Source: Oscillospiraceae bacterium (GTDB taxonomy: Bacteria > Bacillota > Clostridia > Oscillospirales > CAG-272). Taken from it: a stretch of DNA of 32,773 bases. The DNA lies in assembly GCA_015063395.1 (NCBI GenBank), contig SVUF01000008.1, positions 1-32,773 on the forward strand. Reading direction: 5' to 3'. Position 1 is the first letter of the stretch, and the number at the start of each line of letters is the position of its first letter. Shown one piece after another: positions 22,789 through 30,503 of this stretch. The position numbers were made by a program, and so were the translations under genes. The notes below the pieces were generated by a model. It was not told where the DNA came from. It did no database searches and worked only from the letters and a program-made list of their open reading frames with translations.

Positions 22789-23481
22789 TTAAAGCATATT
22801 GGCGTTCTGTTCGGGTTTTGTTGAGACTATATCAAGATTTCCGTTTCTTACTCTGATCTCGTCGATCATTTCCTTTTCGCTTACACCGGACTTCAGCTTT
22901 ATGTTATAGCTTATCTGATAAAGGCTTCCCATATTTGTAGTCTTGATTCTGATGACCTCGCGGCTTGTGGTATATTTGTCAAAAATATCGTCAAAAATAC
23001 CCTCAAAATCAAGTGACTCGGGCACTGTAATGCGAAGTGTTTTTACACGGCTGCTTTCTTTTCCGAGACTTGTGCATGAAACCACAAAGTTTACTGCAAC
23101 AACAATTATGGAGAACAGAACTGCATAGGCGATATATCCCGTACCAACAGTTACACCTGCAACAGTTGCCATGAATACATTCGTGATCTCTCTTGAGTTA
23201 CCGGGAATCGATCTGTATCTCACAAGATTGAAAAGACCCGCAATTGCAATTCCTGTTGTCAGGCTGTTTACAAGAAGGATCACCACTTCTACCACTACGG
23301 GCAGAGTAGCTATACTGATTATAAAATTACGGCTGCAATTATTGTTCTTGATTGCATATGAAAGTGCGATCACAATTCCTAACAAAATTGCAACTCCCGT
23401 ACAGATCAAAAATGTTTTAAGATCAACCTTTGCCGCTTCGTATGTAGACTGATCAAGTATGCTGTTAAATAACTTTTCCAT
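22789..23481 (-). CDS. DUF4956 family membrane protein
   Basis: MEKLFNSILDQSTYEAAKVDLKTFLICTGVAILLGIVIALSYAIKN...NSLTTGIAIAGLFNLVRYRSIPGNSREITNVFMATVAGVTVGTGYIAYA. Start 23481 chosen because GGAGGG lies upstream. Confidence 0.85.
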   Translation of the reverse strand: MEKLFNSILDQSTYEAAKVDLKTFLICTGVAILLGIVIALSYAIKNNNCSRNFIISIATLPVVVEVVILLVNSLTTGIAIAGLFNLVRYRSIPGNSREITNVFMATVAGVTVGTGYIAYAVLFSIIVVAVNFVVSCTSLGKESSRVKTLRITVPESLDFEGIFDDIFDKYTTSREVIRIKTTNMGSLYQISYNIKLKSGVSEKEMIDEIRVRNGNLDIVSTKPEQNANML

Positions 23482-23527
23482 TATTCCCTCCATTAATTAC
23501 CTTTAATTACCTTGTTGGTCATGTTCG

Positions 23528-24289
23528 TTAGTCTTGTTTATCCTGTGTTTTTTTATCTGTTTTGCTCCTCAGATATGCTTTGTATCTGGGTTCATGTCCC
23601 ATTTTCATTCTGTAGGCATTTCCGTATTTTGAAAATGATGCAGGGTATATCTCTAATTCATCAAGGATCTTTGCAAACCACACAGGCATTGCGCCCGGGA
23701 TCTTCAGCTCCATGAGAACCACGTCATCGGGTAATATTTTGTTGCCATAGGAGCCAAGCCTTTGGTCAAGATCATAATCCCTCCAGGTGATATTCCTGTC
23801 AAATGTCAGTCTCAGCTCGTCGTCATCAGCCGATGTATATGACTGTCTGTCATAGGATATATACATCGCAGGGGCAAGACCCTCATAATATTTCAGCATC
23901 CACTCGATCTCCCTTGAGATCTGGCAATCCTTTTTGGGCGGACCTTCTTTTTTCATAAATTTCAGAGCCGTATCATACCTCATTCCGATCCTTCGTTTAT
24001 ACACGATGCCCTTGTATTTCTTTTTGATCTCACAGTACGCCTTGGTATCGTCATCGGGCGTAAAGTACGTCCGCAGCCTCAGCTTTTCCTTGTACACCAC
24101 GGGCTTGTCCATGCTTCGCCTTATGAGAACAAAGGATGGAGTATCAAAATATATATTCGAAATATTGCTCTCAAAGTATTTATCCTTCAGAAATCTGCCC
24201 TCTGTTTTTTCCATAAACGCCCGATACTTTTCAGCATCAAGAATGTACTTCACCTCATAGCGTTTCAAAAACAGATTTTTGCTTCCCAT
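23528..24289 (-). CDS. VTC-domain (polyphosphate polymerase-like) protein
   Basis: KRYEVKYILDAEKYRAFMEK...VYKEKLRLRTYFTPDDDTKAYCEIKKKYKGIVYKRRIGM...VLMELKIPGAMPVWFAKIL. Adjacent to DUF4956, its common partner. Confidence 0.85.
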   Translation of the reverse strand: MGSKNLFLKRYEVKYILDAEKYRAFMEKTEGRFLKDKYFESNISNIYFDTPSFVLIRRSMDKPVVYKEKLRLRTYFTPDDDTKAYCEIKKKYKGIVYKRRIGMRYDTALKFMKKEGPPKKDCQISREIEWMLKYYEGLAPAMYISYDRQSYTSADDDELRLTFDRNITWRDYDLDQRLGSYGNKILPDDVVLMELKIPGAMPVWFAKILDELEIYPASFSKYGNAYRMKMGHEPRYKAYLRSKTDKKTQDKQD

Positions 24290-25107: not shown

Positions 25108-25761
25108 TTATCTGAAGATCCTGCCGCCGTCATCATAAACCGCGGTTCTCATTATGTCATAGTCCCAAAGCTCGCGCCCCAGCTTCGCTCCGATGCCCTT
25201 TACAAGATGGTCGGGGTTTACATATCCCTCCTGCTTTGCCAAAAGCTCGACTCTGATCCTTACTGCGTTCTCGGTCTTTTCTGCAAAGCAGCTCAGCACT
25301 CCGGGTATAAGATCCACATCCACCATTCCTTTTTTGGACTTTTTTGTTATGATTATCGGGCTTTCAAAGGCTTTTTTTACCTCCTCAAGCTCCACTTCCT
25401 CATATACGGTTATTTCATATTCCGCTGACCTTATACTTTGGAAATCCGTAGTTCTCTCATACACATCGGTAAACTGAAGCTCCGGAGGAAATTGGGCATT
25501 GAGTCTTTCAAGAAGCTCCTCCCTCTCCATTGGTTCATTGAGCTTTATGTCAAGGTACTCGCACACACTTTCGCATCCTATGGACAATGGCAGTGAGAAC
25601 ACCATTTTGGGATGAGGATTGAAGCCCTCGGAATAATATATGGGTATTCCCGCTCTTGAAAAAGCCCCCTTCATGGTTCTTATAAGGTCAAGGTGGGAAA
25701 TGAACTTCAGCTTCCCCTCCTTTTTAAACACAAGTCTTATTTTTCCCTGCACCATGTACAT
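25108..25761 (-). CDS. TIGR03936 family (DUF2344) radical SAM-linked protein
   Basis: KIRLVFKKEGKLKFISHLDLIRTMKGAFSRAGIPIYYSEGFNPHPKMVFSLPLSIGCESVCEYLDIKL. Overlaps the upstream radical SAM gene. Confidence 0.9.
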   Translation of the reverse strand: MYMVQGKIRLVFKKEGKLKFISHLDLIRTMKGAFSRAGIPIYYSEGFNPHPKMVFSLPLSIGCESVCEYLDIKLNEPMEREELLERLNAQFPPELQFTDVYERTTDFQSIRSAEYEITVYEEVELEEVKKAFESPIIITKKSKKGMVDVDLIPGVLSCFAEKTENAVRIRVELLAKQEGYVNPDHLVKGIGAKLGRELWDYDIMRTAVYDDGGRIFR

Positions 25762-27581
25762 TTACCTCCAAGCTTGTCCGCGCCGCATCCTGCGCATTTT
25801 TCCTTACAGTTTGGCGTTGTCACCGATTCATATGCCTTTTTACACTCTGATTTCAAGAACGCCTTGGTCACTCCGATCTCCAGCATATCCCATGGAAGAA
25901 GCTCGTCCATACCGATCCTTCTTCTTGCGTAGAAATCGGGGTCGACTCCCGCCGCCTTAAATGCCGCCATCCATTTTTCATAGCTGAAGAACTCGTCCCA
26001 AGCATCAAACTTGACTCCCATTTTGTGAGCCTCAAGAAGCACCGCGCAAAGCTTTCTGCTTCCTCTTGCAAAAGCAGCTTCAACATGTCCCACCTTGGCG
26101 TCATGCCAATTATACTTCACTCTCTTATCGGTTATTACCGAAGCAAGATATGCCTGTTTTCTTTCCTGCTCCTCAAAATCGTCCTGGGCTTCCCACTGGA
26201 ATGCAGTAAACGGCTTTGGAATAAAGCATGATACACTGAGGGTCACTTCGGGGTGCTTGCCCTTTACTCTGTTGGGGTTGCGGTAATACTCCTTTACCAC
26301 CTTTTCGGAAAGCTCTGCAATTCCCTTTATATCCTCATCAGTCTCCGTGGGAAGACCGCTCATGAAATACAGCTTCACCTTGTTCTTTCCAAAATCAAAA
26401 GCAACGTTACAAGCCTTGAACAGATCCTCCTCGTAGAGATTCTTGTTTATAGCATCGCGAAGCCTCTGTGTTCCCGCCTCGGGAGCGAAGGTGATTCCCG
26501 ACTGTCTTACCCCCGAGATCTTCTTCATAAGCTCATGGGTGAAGGCATCGGCTCTTTGTGAGGGCAACGAAAGGCTGACCTTTTTGTCGTCCGTCCACTT
26601 AAGCAGCTCGTCCGTCAGCTCTGACAGGTGGGGATAATCCGACACACTGAGACATGTCAGGGATATTTCGTCATATCCCGTGTTCTCGTGAAGCTTTCTT
26701 GCTCTGCAGTTCAGCACATCGGGGGAAGCATGTCTTACGGGACGGTATGTCATTCCTGCTTGACAAAATCTGCATCCTCTGATGCATCCTCTGAATATTT
26801 CAAGCATTATTCTGTCATGCACGGTCTCTATATAGGGTATCACGAACTTGTCGGGATAATATACCTTGTCAAGATCTGCAATTATTCTCTTTTTTATCTT
26901 TGCGGGAACATCGGGATACTTTGGTCTGAAATAGTCCATTGTGCCGTCAGCCTTATATCCCACCTCATACAGTGACGGAACATAGAAGCCTTCAAGATGG
27001 GACACCTCACGTAAGAAGCCCTGTCTTGTATATGTTCCTTCCTTTTTCATCTTTATGTAAAGCTCCATAAATTCGGGAAGTGCCTCCTCGCCCTCTCCTA
27101 TGGAGAACACATCAAAGAAGTCCGCAATTGGCTCGGGGTTATAAATTGCAGGTCCGCCGCCGATGATTATGGGGCAGTCATCGCCCCTGTCCTCTGAAAG
27201 CAACGGAATCCCCGCAAGATCCAGCATATTCAGTACATTGGAAAATGAAAGCTCATACTGAAGGGTAAAGGCTACCACGTCAAAGCATGTAAGATCATCC
27301 TGGCTTTCCAGAGCAAAAAGAGGAATGTTCTCTTCTCTCATCATACTTTCCATGTCATCTGCAGGAGCATAGCATCTCTCGCACCATACATTCGGCATTC
27401 TGTTGAGAACGCCCCAAAGTATTCTCATTCCAAGGTTGGACATTCCGATCTCATAGGTATCGGGAAAGCAAAATGCCACCCTTGCGTCCATTTTTTCCTT
27501 GTCTTTTCTGATCTCTCCGTACTCTGCGCCGATATATCTTCCCGGCTTCAGCGCCTTTTTCAAAATAACGTCTTTTTTCAT
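25737..27581 (-). CDS. TIGR03960 family B12-binding-domain radical SAM protein
   Basis: PGRYIGAEYGEIRKDKEKMDARVAFCFPDTYEIGMSNLGMRILWGVLN... and EIFRGCIRGCRFCQAGMTYRPVR (CxxxCxxC). Confidence 0.93.
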   Translation of the reverse strand: MKKDVILKKALKPGRYIGAEYGEIRKDKEKMDARVAFCFPDTYEIGMSNLGMRILWGVLNRMPNVWCERCYAPADDMESMMREENIPLFALESQDDLTCFDVVAFTLQYELSFSNVLNMLDLAGIPLLSEDRGDDCPIIIGGGPAIYNPEPIADFFDVFSIGEGEEALPEFMELYIKMKKEGTYTRQGFLREVSHLEGFYVPSLYEVGYKADGTMDYFRPKYPDVPAKIKKRIIADLDKVYYPDKFVIPYIETVHDRIMLEIFRGCIRGCRFCQAGMTYRPVRHASPDVLNCRARKLHENTGYDEISLTCLSVSDYPHLSELTDELLKWTDDKKVSLSLPSQRADAFTHELMKKISGVRQSGITFAPEAGTQRLRDAINKNLYEEDLFKACNVAFDFGKNKVKLYFMSGLPTETDEDIKGIAELSEKVVKEYYRNPNRVKGKHPEVTLSVSCFIPKPFTAFQWEAQDDFEEQERKQAYLASVITDKRVKYNWHDAKVGHVEAAFARGSRKLCAVLLEAHKMGVKFDAWDEFFSYEKWMAAFKAAGVDPDFYARRRIGMDELLPWDMLEIGVTKAFLKSECKKAYESVTTPNCKEKCAGCGADKLGGKCTWCREK

Positions 27582-27675: not shown

Positions 27676-29634
27676 TTACACTCTGTCGCTTAATCCCGAA
27701 AGGAGAAATAGCGTTGGGAGGGCTGATATAAGCTGATAAAACAGCATATACCACATTCCAACTCCGCCGTCTTTGCCGAATATGGCAAAGACTGCCGAAA
27801 GTATGACTCCCGTTGCAAACACAAAGCCCTTGATGATCATATCCGTACGGAAAATCGACGAAGCCTTTACCGCAACGATCAGTCCCGAAAGCAGACTTTC
27901 CTCACCCTTTGATGACACTATCCCTCCGCTGATCTCCTTTTTGCATTTGTCGGAGTCCTTGCCCTCAATGGATTTCATAATTCCAATGGGATACTTTTCC
28001 AAGGGGATCCTCACATTCATCATTTCATCATTTATAGATGGGTCGCAGGTGCATATTCCAAGGTACATTCCCTGCCTTTTTAAAAGGGAGGCAATTTTCG
28101 GTATATCGCTTTCCATTGTATATTCAAGATACGCCTTGAGGGCAATGCTGTGGCCAAGAGCCAAATATACAACGCTTATGCCGGGATCGATCTTTTCGTC
28201 ATGAGCAAAATCCTCATGCTCAAATCCGCAATCCCTCATATACCCGATGCCGCCAACAAACACAGTTCCTCCGTTTACAGCGCCGCGTATTCCCGATGAT
28301 GACACGTCAAGTATGTCTATATCAAACTTCTCGTCATAGTCCCCCACGGATTTTTCAAAAATTGCCGCCGCAGGTGAGCCTATCTTTTTGTATATGGCAT
28401 TGATTATGTAAAGAAGGGTGTCGATCCTGTTTTCTCCGTATGCCCGAAATCCCTTAAGCTTTATTTTTGAAGGCGGGAATACTGCAGTATCGTCAAAATA
28501 TACTGCGGTGCTTTCGGAATAATCCTCGAAGGCTCCGTTTCCGACAATGGTACATCCCGATGCCGATGCAACCGACGCGCCTCCGCCGAATATAAACGAA
28601 TATGAAAATAAAATGGAAAAAGGCATCGTCAGCATCATTGTCATAATGCATGCCGAAGCTGCAGAAACAAGCTCCGCTCCTGCAAAAACCTTATATATTC
28701 CCATACCGAGAGCTACAAGAAGGGACAAAAGGATCATTCTCCTGCTGTGGCGTCCTTCCTTATATTCGGAATTGCTTCTTTTTACAAAATCCTTTACAAA
28801 CCTTGCTTTTTCCACGGTTATCATGTTTTTGCCGTCGGGGGAGTATCTTCCCACATGACCCTCCGAAAGCTTTTTCACAGTAAGAACATGCTTTTCACCC
28901 TTTTCGGATACTCCGAGAAAGGCATTGTATTTTCTCGTTGTGTCAGCATAGTCAGCCACCGCCGTATAAAGAGCCAAGAGAGAAGTGGGAGTCAGATATA
29001 AATTATACATAGCTGTCCCTTCTTCTATACCGACAGCGCCCATCACCGCAAGGAAAATATAATAAATACACATAACGGTGGAGCTTACCGTAAACACCGA
29101 CGCCGAGCTTGCCCTGCCTGTTATGAGTCCCATGCCCTTTATATAGCTCTTATAGTTAAAAGCGCAAATCAGCAATAGGATCTGAAGAGCCGCAAGGGGC
29201 GGTATGGAATTGTGATACAGTATAGTAAGCCTTTCAAAAAGCCCTTCGTTATAAAATACAAACAGCTCAAGCACAAAGGATATTACAAGAAAGATCGCAG
29301 TTGGAAGAATTTTTCCTCCGGACTTTTTCCTCATTTCCCTATATTTCTTCTCAAATTCTCCATTTTGAGACTCCACAACATATTCCTGTGCGCCCTTTAT
29401 CTTACGTTGGCTGTCAAGATTCTTTTTTACCTCCCTATAATGCTCGGGGTTACGCTTTTTTGCTTCGCCGTCAAGCCCGAATATCATCATAAGGTCTATG
29501 TCATTTTCTTCATTTCCAAGCTCACCCTTGGGAAATTCCTTTTTCAATATCTTCTTTTCTATTGTGGGATTTCCGCTTTTCAGTCTGAACCTGTATTTTT
29601 TTACCCGTTTATTACTTTTCGGATTTTTCTTCAA
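27676..29634 (-). CDS. P-type-ATPase-like membrane protein with degenerate catalytic motifs (putative pseudoenzyme)
   Basis: TM layout resembles P1B ATPases. VYFDDTAVFPPSKIKLKG occupies the position of FDKTGTLT. SGIRGAVNGGTVFVGGIGYM and VVYLALGHSIALKAYLEYTMESDIPKIASLLKRQGMYLGICTCDP resemble P-type ATPase N/P domains (usual VxMLTGD). Confidence 0.65.
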   Translation of the reverse strand: MKKNPKSNKRVKKYRFRLKSGNPTIEKKILKKEFPKGELGNEENDIDLMMIFGLDGEAKKRNPEHYREVKKNLDSQRKIKGAQEYVVESQNGEFEKKYREMRKKSGGKILPTAIFLVISFVLELFVFYNEGLFERLTILYHNSIPPLAALQILLLICAFNYKSYIKGMGLITGRASSASVFTVSSTVMCIYYIFLAVMGAVGIEEGTAMYNLYLTPTSLLALYTAVADYADTTRKYNAFLGVSEKGEKHVLTVKKLSEGHVGRYSPDGKNMITVEKARFVKDFVKRSNSEYKEGRHSRRMILLSLLVALGMGIYKVFAGAELVSAASACIMTMMLTMPFSILFSYSFIFGGGASVASASGCTIVGNGAFEDYSESTAVYFDDTAVFPPSKIKLKGFRAYGENRIDTLLYIINAIYKKIGSPAAAIFEKSVGDYDEKFDIDILDVSSSGIRGAVNGGTVFVGGIGYMRDCGFEHEDFAHDEKIDPGISVVYLALGHSIALKAYLEYTMESDIPKIASLLKRQGMYLGICTCDPSINDEMMNVRIPLEKYPIGIMKSIEGKDSDKCKKEISGGIVSSKGEESLLSGLIVAVKASSIFRTDMIIKGFVFATGVILSAVFAIFGKDGGVGMWYMLFYQLISALPTLFLLSGLSDRV

Positions 29635-29654
29635 AACTTATTCCGCCTTTGCTT

Positions 29655-30503
29655 TTATTTTTCATGTCTTTGAGCAGCCGCCTCGGAAAGCACCACAGCC
29701 GCCGCGCAGGATACATTCAGGGAATTTACCTTTCCGTACATGTCAATTGAAACGATAAAATCGCATTTTTCGCTGACAAGCCTTGAAATTCCCGCGCCCT
29801 CGCTTCCAAACACAAAAGCCGCCGCGCCCTTCATATCAGTATGTCTGATGCTTGTGCCCCCTGCTTCTGCGCCGTATATCCACACTCCGTTTTTCTTGAG
29901 GGTATCAATTGCATATCCTATATTCGCCACCTTGGCAATTGCAATATGCTCAAGAGCACCTGCGGACGCCTTGGCGGTAACAGCAGTTACGGTTGCCCCG
30001 TGTCGCTTGGGAATTATAAGCCCGTGGACTCCCGCAATATCACAGCATCGGATCAACGCCCCAAGATTGCCCGGGTCCTCAACTCCGTCGGCAATTACAA
30101 TAAAGGGCGCTTCCCCTCTTTCCTCCGCAATGGCTAAAATATCCTCAACGGAACAGTATTCCTTGTAGCTTGCAAGAGCCGCAACACCCTGATGGTTTGC
30201 TCCGCAGCACATGGAATCCAGCTTTCTTTTATCAACATTTACAACGGGAACACCCATATCGATTGCCTTTGCAACCACAAGAGTTATGGAGCCCTCTCTG
30301 TCACCCGACGCAACATAGAGCTTGTCGGGGGCTCTGCCCGATGTCAAAAGCTCTAAAACAGGGTTTCTTCCGTAGATCAGCCCCTCAGGTGCATTGTCCT
30401 CGCTTTGTCTTTCTCCATGCTCCTTATTGTAGGGCTTTCGGCTCTTGCCCTCCCCTTTTTTGTTGTTATCAGTGGGTCTTCTGTCGTTTTTATAGTTTTT
30501 CAT
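29655..30503 (-). CDS. rlmB: 23S rRNA 2'-O-methyltransferase, RlmB/TrmH (SpoU) family
   Basis: GLIYGRNPVLELLTSGRAPDKLYVASG...VIADGVEDPGNLGALIRCCDIAGVHGLIIPKRHGA...FVFGSEGAGISRLVSEKCDFIVSIDMYGKVNSLNVSCAAAVVL. Confidence 0.93.
   Translation of the reverse strand: MKNYKNDRRPTDNNKKGEGKSRKPYNKEHGERQSEDNAPEGLIYGRNPVLELLTSGRAPDKLYVASGDREGSITLVVAKAIDMGVPVVNVDKRKLDSMCCGANHQGVAALASYKEYCSVEDILAIAEERGEAPFIVIADGVEDPGNLGALIRCCDIAGVHGLIIPKRHGATVTAVTAKASAGALEHIAIAKVANIGYAIDTLKKNGVWIYGAEAGGTSIRHTDMKGAAAFVFGSEGAGISRLVSEKCDFIVSIDMYGKVNSLNVSCAAAVVLSEAAAQRHEK

Follow-up and report, generated by a model that had tools for sequence, protein, structure and literature searches.

The window, the whole 32,773-nucleotide stretch of an Oscillospiraceae contig analyzed here, carries on its minus strand a gene for a 652-aa protein that begins 20 nt past the stop codon of rlmB and is followed by a gene of the TIGR03960 family (Table 1). 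As an earlier sequence-only reading had stated, the 652-codon frame is intact, and the altered motif strings quoted in that reading are all present in the protein at the places assigned to them. The frame has a TTG start, with the ribosome-binding site AAAGGCGG 8 nt upstream. Also on the minus strand, adjacent genes with DUF4956 and VTC domains (PF16316 and PF09359; positions 22789-24289) form a polyphosphate-polymerase-like pair, and, counted from the left end of the window, the second predicted gene is a very long reading frame (2465 codons).

Table 1. Positions in the window of the pseudo-P1B-ATPase gene, its parts and its neighbours
Feature	Position	Strand	Basis
TIGR03960 B12-binding radical SAM gene, downstream neighbour	25737..27581	minus	profile search
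Pseudo-P1B-ATPase gene, 652 aa, TTG start	27676..29634	minus	profile matches, hhalign, AlphaFold2, Foldseek
Helices M5 and M6 (aa 578-651); metal-site motifs YN and MxxSS lacking	27682..27903	minus	model + alignment
TCDPSI (aa 529-534; family TxDPNI) replacing TGDN; D531 99% conserved	28033..28050	minus	profile alignment + motif counts
GSP (aa 419-421; family GGP) replacing the HP motif of the nucleotide-binding domain	28372..28380	minus	profile alignment + motif counts
Former phosphorylation loop VYFDDTAVFP (aa 378-387) replacing FDKTGTLT; D382, F386 and P387 conserved	28474..28503	minus	profile alignment + motif counts
Helices M3 and M4 (aa 294-358); break in M4 at P338, CPC position reads MPF	28561..28755	minus	model + alignment
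Reduced actuator domain without TGE (aa 248-287)	28774..28893	minus	model + alignment
Helices MA, MB, M1 and M2 (aa 109-242)	28909..29310	minus	AlphaFold2 model
Short cytosolic N-terminal tail (aa 1-80)	29395..29634	minus	model + family comparison
Tail motif DIDLMMIFG (aa 45-53), family form D..LMxAFG	29476..29502	minus	motif count vs shuffles
Ribosome-binding site AAAGGCGG, 8 nt ahead of TTG	29643..29650	minus	direct reading
rlmB, 23S rRNA G2251 2'-O-methyltransferase (TIGR00186), upstream partner	29655..30503	minus	profile search

No Pfam family covers the protein, and its score against TIGR01525 (ATPase-IB_hvy) is 38.6 bits (E=6e-10), below the curated cut-off of 346 bits. At the level of sequence, its kinship to P-type ATPases is above chance: the profile of its family matches Legionella pneumophila CopA (LpCopA; 3rfu) with E=1.7e-32, and alignment of the family with intact P1B pumps by hhalign extends over 550 columns (99.9%, E=4.8e-36). 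In the AlphaFold2 model of the window protein (pLDDT 87.8, pTM 0.83), helices MA, MB, M1 and M2 precede a small actuator remnant; M3 and an M4 interrupted at P338 come next, then the P and N domains and the last two helices, M5 and M6. The M2-M3 loop, which corresponds to the A domain, is reduced in the family to a median of 56 aa. LpCopA (4bbj) is the best Foldseek match of this model (E 3.9e-16, probability 1.00), and the top eleven matches are all P1B ATPases. The P-type layout proposed in the sequence-only reading is thus borne out as a full predicted P1B fold with eight-helix topology, which is seen again in the model of a second family member (L009).

The catalytic and metal-site motifs of the pump have been lost throughout the family. 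Among the cores of 123 non-redundant members, none contains DKTGT, the TGE dephosphorylation loop of the A domain, the Mg2+/hinge motif GDGxND or the SEHP sequence of the N domain, where GGP or GSP stands instead. At the CPC position the proline survives and the metal-binding Cys pattern is lost; YN in M5 and MxxSS in M6 are each found in 1/123 cores, although the search patterns for these two also miss 7 of 16 intact pumps and are weaker tests than CPC. In the window protein, the corresponding positions read T336-MPF-339 (CPC), KIGS420-P421-AAAIF (HP) and C528-TCDPSIND (TGD), and GDGxND is not found. When the family profile is aligned with intact pumps, gaps stand opposite the TGE and GDGxND segments, the latter reflecting a deletion of about 36 residues downstream of TCDPSI/TxDPNI.

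The degenerate motifs are kept as a family signature, DxxVFP, GGPL and TxDPNI, as alignment of the orthologues shows. Conservation reaches 99% at D531, 93% at G365, 91% at D382 and 90% at P387, and G461 and the strings VFP, GGPL and TxDPNI are likewise conserved. In the membrane part, conservation extends to E123, to two prolines (P338 at the M4 break, 91%; position 348, 89%) and, in M6, to the LYQLFW segment. The suggestion that the phosphorylatable Asp may remain holds for the window copy but for only part of the family: in an ungapped alignment with intact pumps, D381 faces the phospho-Asp and D382 faces the Lys of DKTGT, and the position of D381 is Asp in only 63/123 relatives, whereas it is the adjacent D382 that is conserved as Asp (112/123).

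Several lines of evidence point to restriction of the family to one bacterial order, which is likely to be Oscillospirales; the named records with the gene are labelled Oscillospiraceae, Ruminococcus or Clostridia. In a search of 59 genomes around the window (one genome per genus), 56 gave matches, the weakest of which are probably ordinary pumps. A profile built from 30 relatives scores up to 929 bits inside the order and about 70 bits and below outside it; all of the 16 non-order loci retrieved with this profile carry DKTGT and GDGxND, whereas 175 members from the order carry neither. With a wider profile run across the phylum, the in-order scores are 508 and 387 bits; no score elsewhere exceeds 107 bits, and the matches there cover the P/N region only. 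All 25 inspected pump loci retain DKTGT and GDGxND, including two from the genome of the window, which thus separately encodes two intact P1B pumps. Matches occur in 296/297 genomes within the order, a figure that includes ordinary pumps and is not an exact prevalence. When the 24 genomes with the weakest matches were re-examined, the gene was found directly behind rlmB in 13, and 5 were cut by contig ends; one (G036) has rlmB without an adjoining pseudo-pump gene, and 5 have neither rlmB above the cut-off nor a pseudo-pump score above background. This co-absence is weak evidence, as a single gap in the assembly or a single deletion would take away both genes. Members span about 20 families of the order, and their frames are open in nearly all cases. 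No relatives of the pseudo-pump were found among the viral contigs searched. One record (L170; JAGHTD010000015.1) labelled Candidatus Colimorpha enterica (Bacteroidota according to NCBI) encodes this order-restricted protein, and is probably a mislabelled or contaminated MAG.

The position next to rlmB is nearly invariant. In 102 of the 103 testable loci, the gene directly upstream, in the same orientation, is rlmB, usually with a gap of a few tens of bases, and the sole exception by this rule (L108) also has rlmB adjacent in the gene map. An apparent absence of rlmB at two loci (L102 and L106), where the first gene map showed long antisense ORFs, was discarded, as profile search detects rlmB next to the pseudo-pump gene in L106 and also in L062, which is nearly a copy of L102. 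The best shared outer neighbours are TIGR03960 downstream (41/62) and a sigma-factor-like gene upstream (17/60). Outside the order, no family member was found behind rlmB (loci L191-L220), and the genes there resemble rae1 and sigH, names that are given by sequence resemblance. Comparison of this rae1-sigH type cluster with the sigma-factor-like gene upstream inside the order suggests that the cluster was rearranged around the arrival of the pseudo-pump. A basic N-terminal extension of RlmB was considered as a partner of the acidic tail described below, and was rejected because RlmB outside the order has an extension of similar length and charge. Gene order suggests a possible functional tie to RlmB, a shared operon being no proof of a physical link.

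The family appears to be single in origin, and its core is under strong purifying selection. In a maximum-likelihood tree, 36 pseudo-pump members form one clade, which is split from 16 intact pumps with support of 100/100; this is consistent with a single origin of the family, in which the window member sits on a long branch. Between 15 close pairs, dN/dS is 0.03-0.14 for the core and 0.04-0.38 for the tail; these pairs are relatives, the window copy being without a close relative in the collection. The conserved degenerate motifs and the purifying selection on the core argue against a decaying pseudogene, as the sequence-only reading had held. Such strong selection on a catalytically stripped pump relative means that some other job must exist.

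Most members differ from the window copy in the region ahead of the core. Counted from the upstream stop codon, this region has a family median of about 296 residues, 27% of them acidic, and is largely disordered, whereas the window protein has about 78. In the model of L009, a typical member, a helix at residues 12-27 (pLDDT about 83) is followed by disorder to about residue 198 and then by helices running into the core. The pattern [ST]x[DE][DE][IL][LI], which marks an amphipathic helix near the tail start, occurs in 54/122 tails (1.5 expected from shuffles) and LMxAFG in 49/122 (0 expected), counts that measure conservation rather than an independent test because the motifs were defined on the same sequences. 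A tail motif common to other membrane proteins was rejected: only 1 of 2638 neighbourhood ORFs matched, and none with a membrane helix. Gene loss in genus g125 was likewise rejected, as the gene is present there with a very long tail, which exceeds 800 aa in most of the copies that extended beyond the stretch first examined; in four loci of this genus (L251-L254), repeated basic-aromatic motifs, KKSFWSKWFS and PKRSFFSRLFG, lie between acidic stretches. Because the window copy is very short-tailed and on a long branch, ideas based on the tail may not apply to it.

That the window protein and its family are dead P1B pumps is well supported by the sequence comparisons and models, because every element of the phosphorylation cycle and of the metal site is lost; biochemical inactivity is what these losses predict. 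Neither of the findings that the sequence-only reading had named as counting against it, a predicted structure lacking the P-type fold and orthologues with intact DKTGT, was obtained, and its proposal of a sensor or scaffold derived from a pump would be consistent with all of these results. The retained fold, the fixed new surface motifs, the tail and the selection would favour, as a somewhat probable reading, a membrane scaffold or conformational sensor that derives from a P1B pump, is catalytically dead and is made together with RlmB. The protein descends from a P1B metal-pumping ATPase and keeps its architecture, with eight membrane helices, a reduced actuator and both the P and the N domain. 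The phosphorylation loop, TGE, GDGxND (by deletion), HP and the metal-binding residues of M4-M6 are lost, so that the pump cycle is predicted no longer to run. The family has instead gained fixed surface motifs, DxxVFP, GGPL and TxDPNI, and most members also carry a long, acidic tail in the cytosol, often opening with a short amphipathic helix. A cytosolic partner might then be bound by the P/N head together with the tail motifs, possibly when a ligand occupies the former transport route. Candidate partners would be RlmB and the ribosome during its maturation, and a link to ribosome maturation is speculative. In its broadest form the idea is a long shot: an order-wide core family in Clostridia would serve as a non-enzymatic membrane hub made from a P-type ATPase, its tail motifs linking the membrane with ribosome maturation that depends on RlmB, or with some other process in the cytosol.

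Other functions of the protein have to be weighed against the scaffold or sensor. A passive channel, facilitator or lipid scramblase, in which the membrane pathway of the pump is kept and ATP coupling is lost, would account for the conservation of P338, proline 348, E123 and the LYQLFW segment, but is unlikely, as CPC, YN and MxxSS are lost and a channel would not need so strong a conservation of the P and N domains. DxD is the general motif I of the HAD superfamily, and the protein might still be an enzyme in which D382-x-[D/E]384 supports slow phosphatase or ATPase chemistry without the pump cycle. Asp at position 382 in the great majority of members and D or E at position 384 in 97/123 fit such a site, whereas the Mg2+-binding motif IV (GDGxND) is deleted, position 382 is Ala, Ser or Glu in 11/123 members and the window protein itself has Ala at position 384, so that residual enzyme activity has only a slim chance.

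A non-catalytic subunit pairing with an intact P1B pump and regulating it is improbable to a similar degree. The two intact P1B pumps in the same genome would provide possible partners, but the gene sits with rlmB, and in the neighbourhoods examined the families of shared neighbours include no other P-type pump gene beside it. For the window copy, which is short-tailed and divergent (26% identity or less to relatives), decay into a pseudogene or faulty assembly could be considered; against this stand the open frames and common signature across about 20 families, the low dN/dS of the core and a locus that is the same everywhere, which make decay or misassembly exceedingly improbable.

A vertically inherited bacterial family that is order-wide and strongly selected, and in which the fold is kept and all catalytic motifs are lost, would clearly exemplify the conversion of a pump to another use, and would allow asking directly what the P-type fold does without ATP. 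In the literature searched, no paper on a bacterial P-type pseudoenzyme and no description of such a family was found, and the pseudo-pump family, for which Pfam has no model, appears uncharacterized. A 2023 review of P-type ATPases (PMC10654040) gave no match for "inactive" and one unrelated match for "pseudo".

Among known systems, the pseudo-pump resembles HAD-superfamily hydrolases in its P domain, which has a HAD-type fold whose first strand ends in an Asp, but its motif IV is deleted and its motif II is altered to TxDPN. P-type ATPases are defined by a phosphorylated Asp, and pump-independent functions were reportedly proposed for one of them, C. elegans CATP-1, by Ruaud and Bessereau in 2007. 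A later paper disputes this role and ascribes the phenotype to pump activity (PMC11631496). CATP-1 is comparable in that a signalling role independent of pumping was suggested for a P-type ATPase, but it keeps the catalytic Asp motif, whereas the pseudo-pump does not keep DKTGT. The closest likeness is to the P1B ATPases CopA and ZntA (TIGR01525; LpCopA, 3rfu/4bbj), with which the pseudo-pump shares eight helices, the order of the A, P and N domains, the M4 break at the CPC proline and sequence kinship. Unlike CopA and ZntA, it is devoid of DKTGT, TGE, GDGxND, HP, CPC, YN and MxxSS, and bears an acidic tail in place of their metal-binding N domain.
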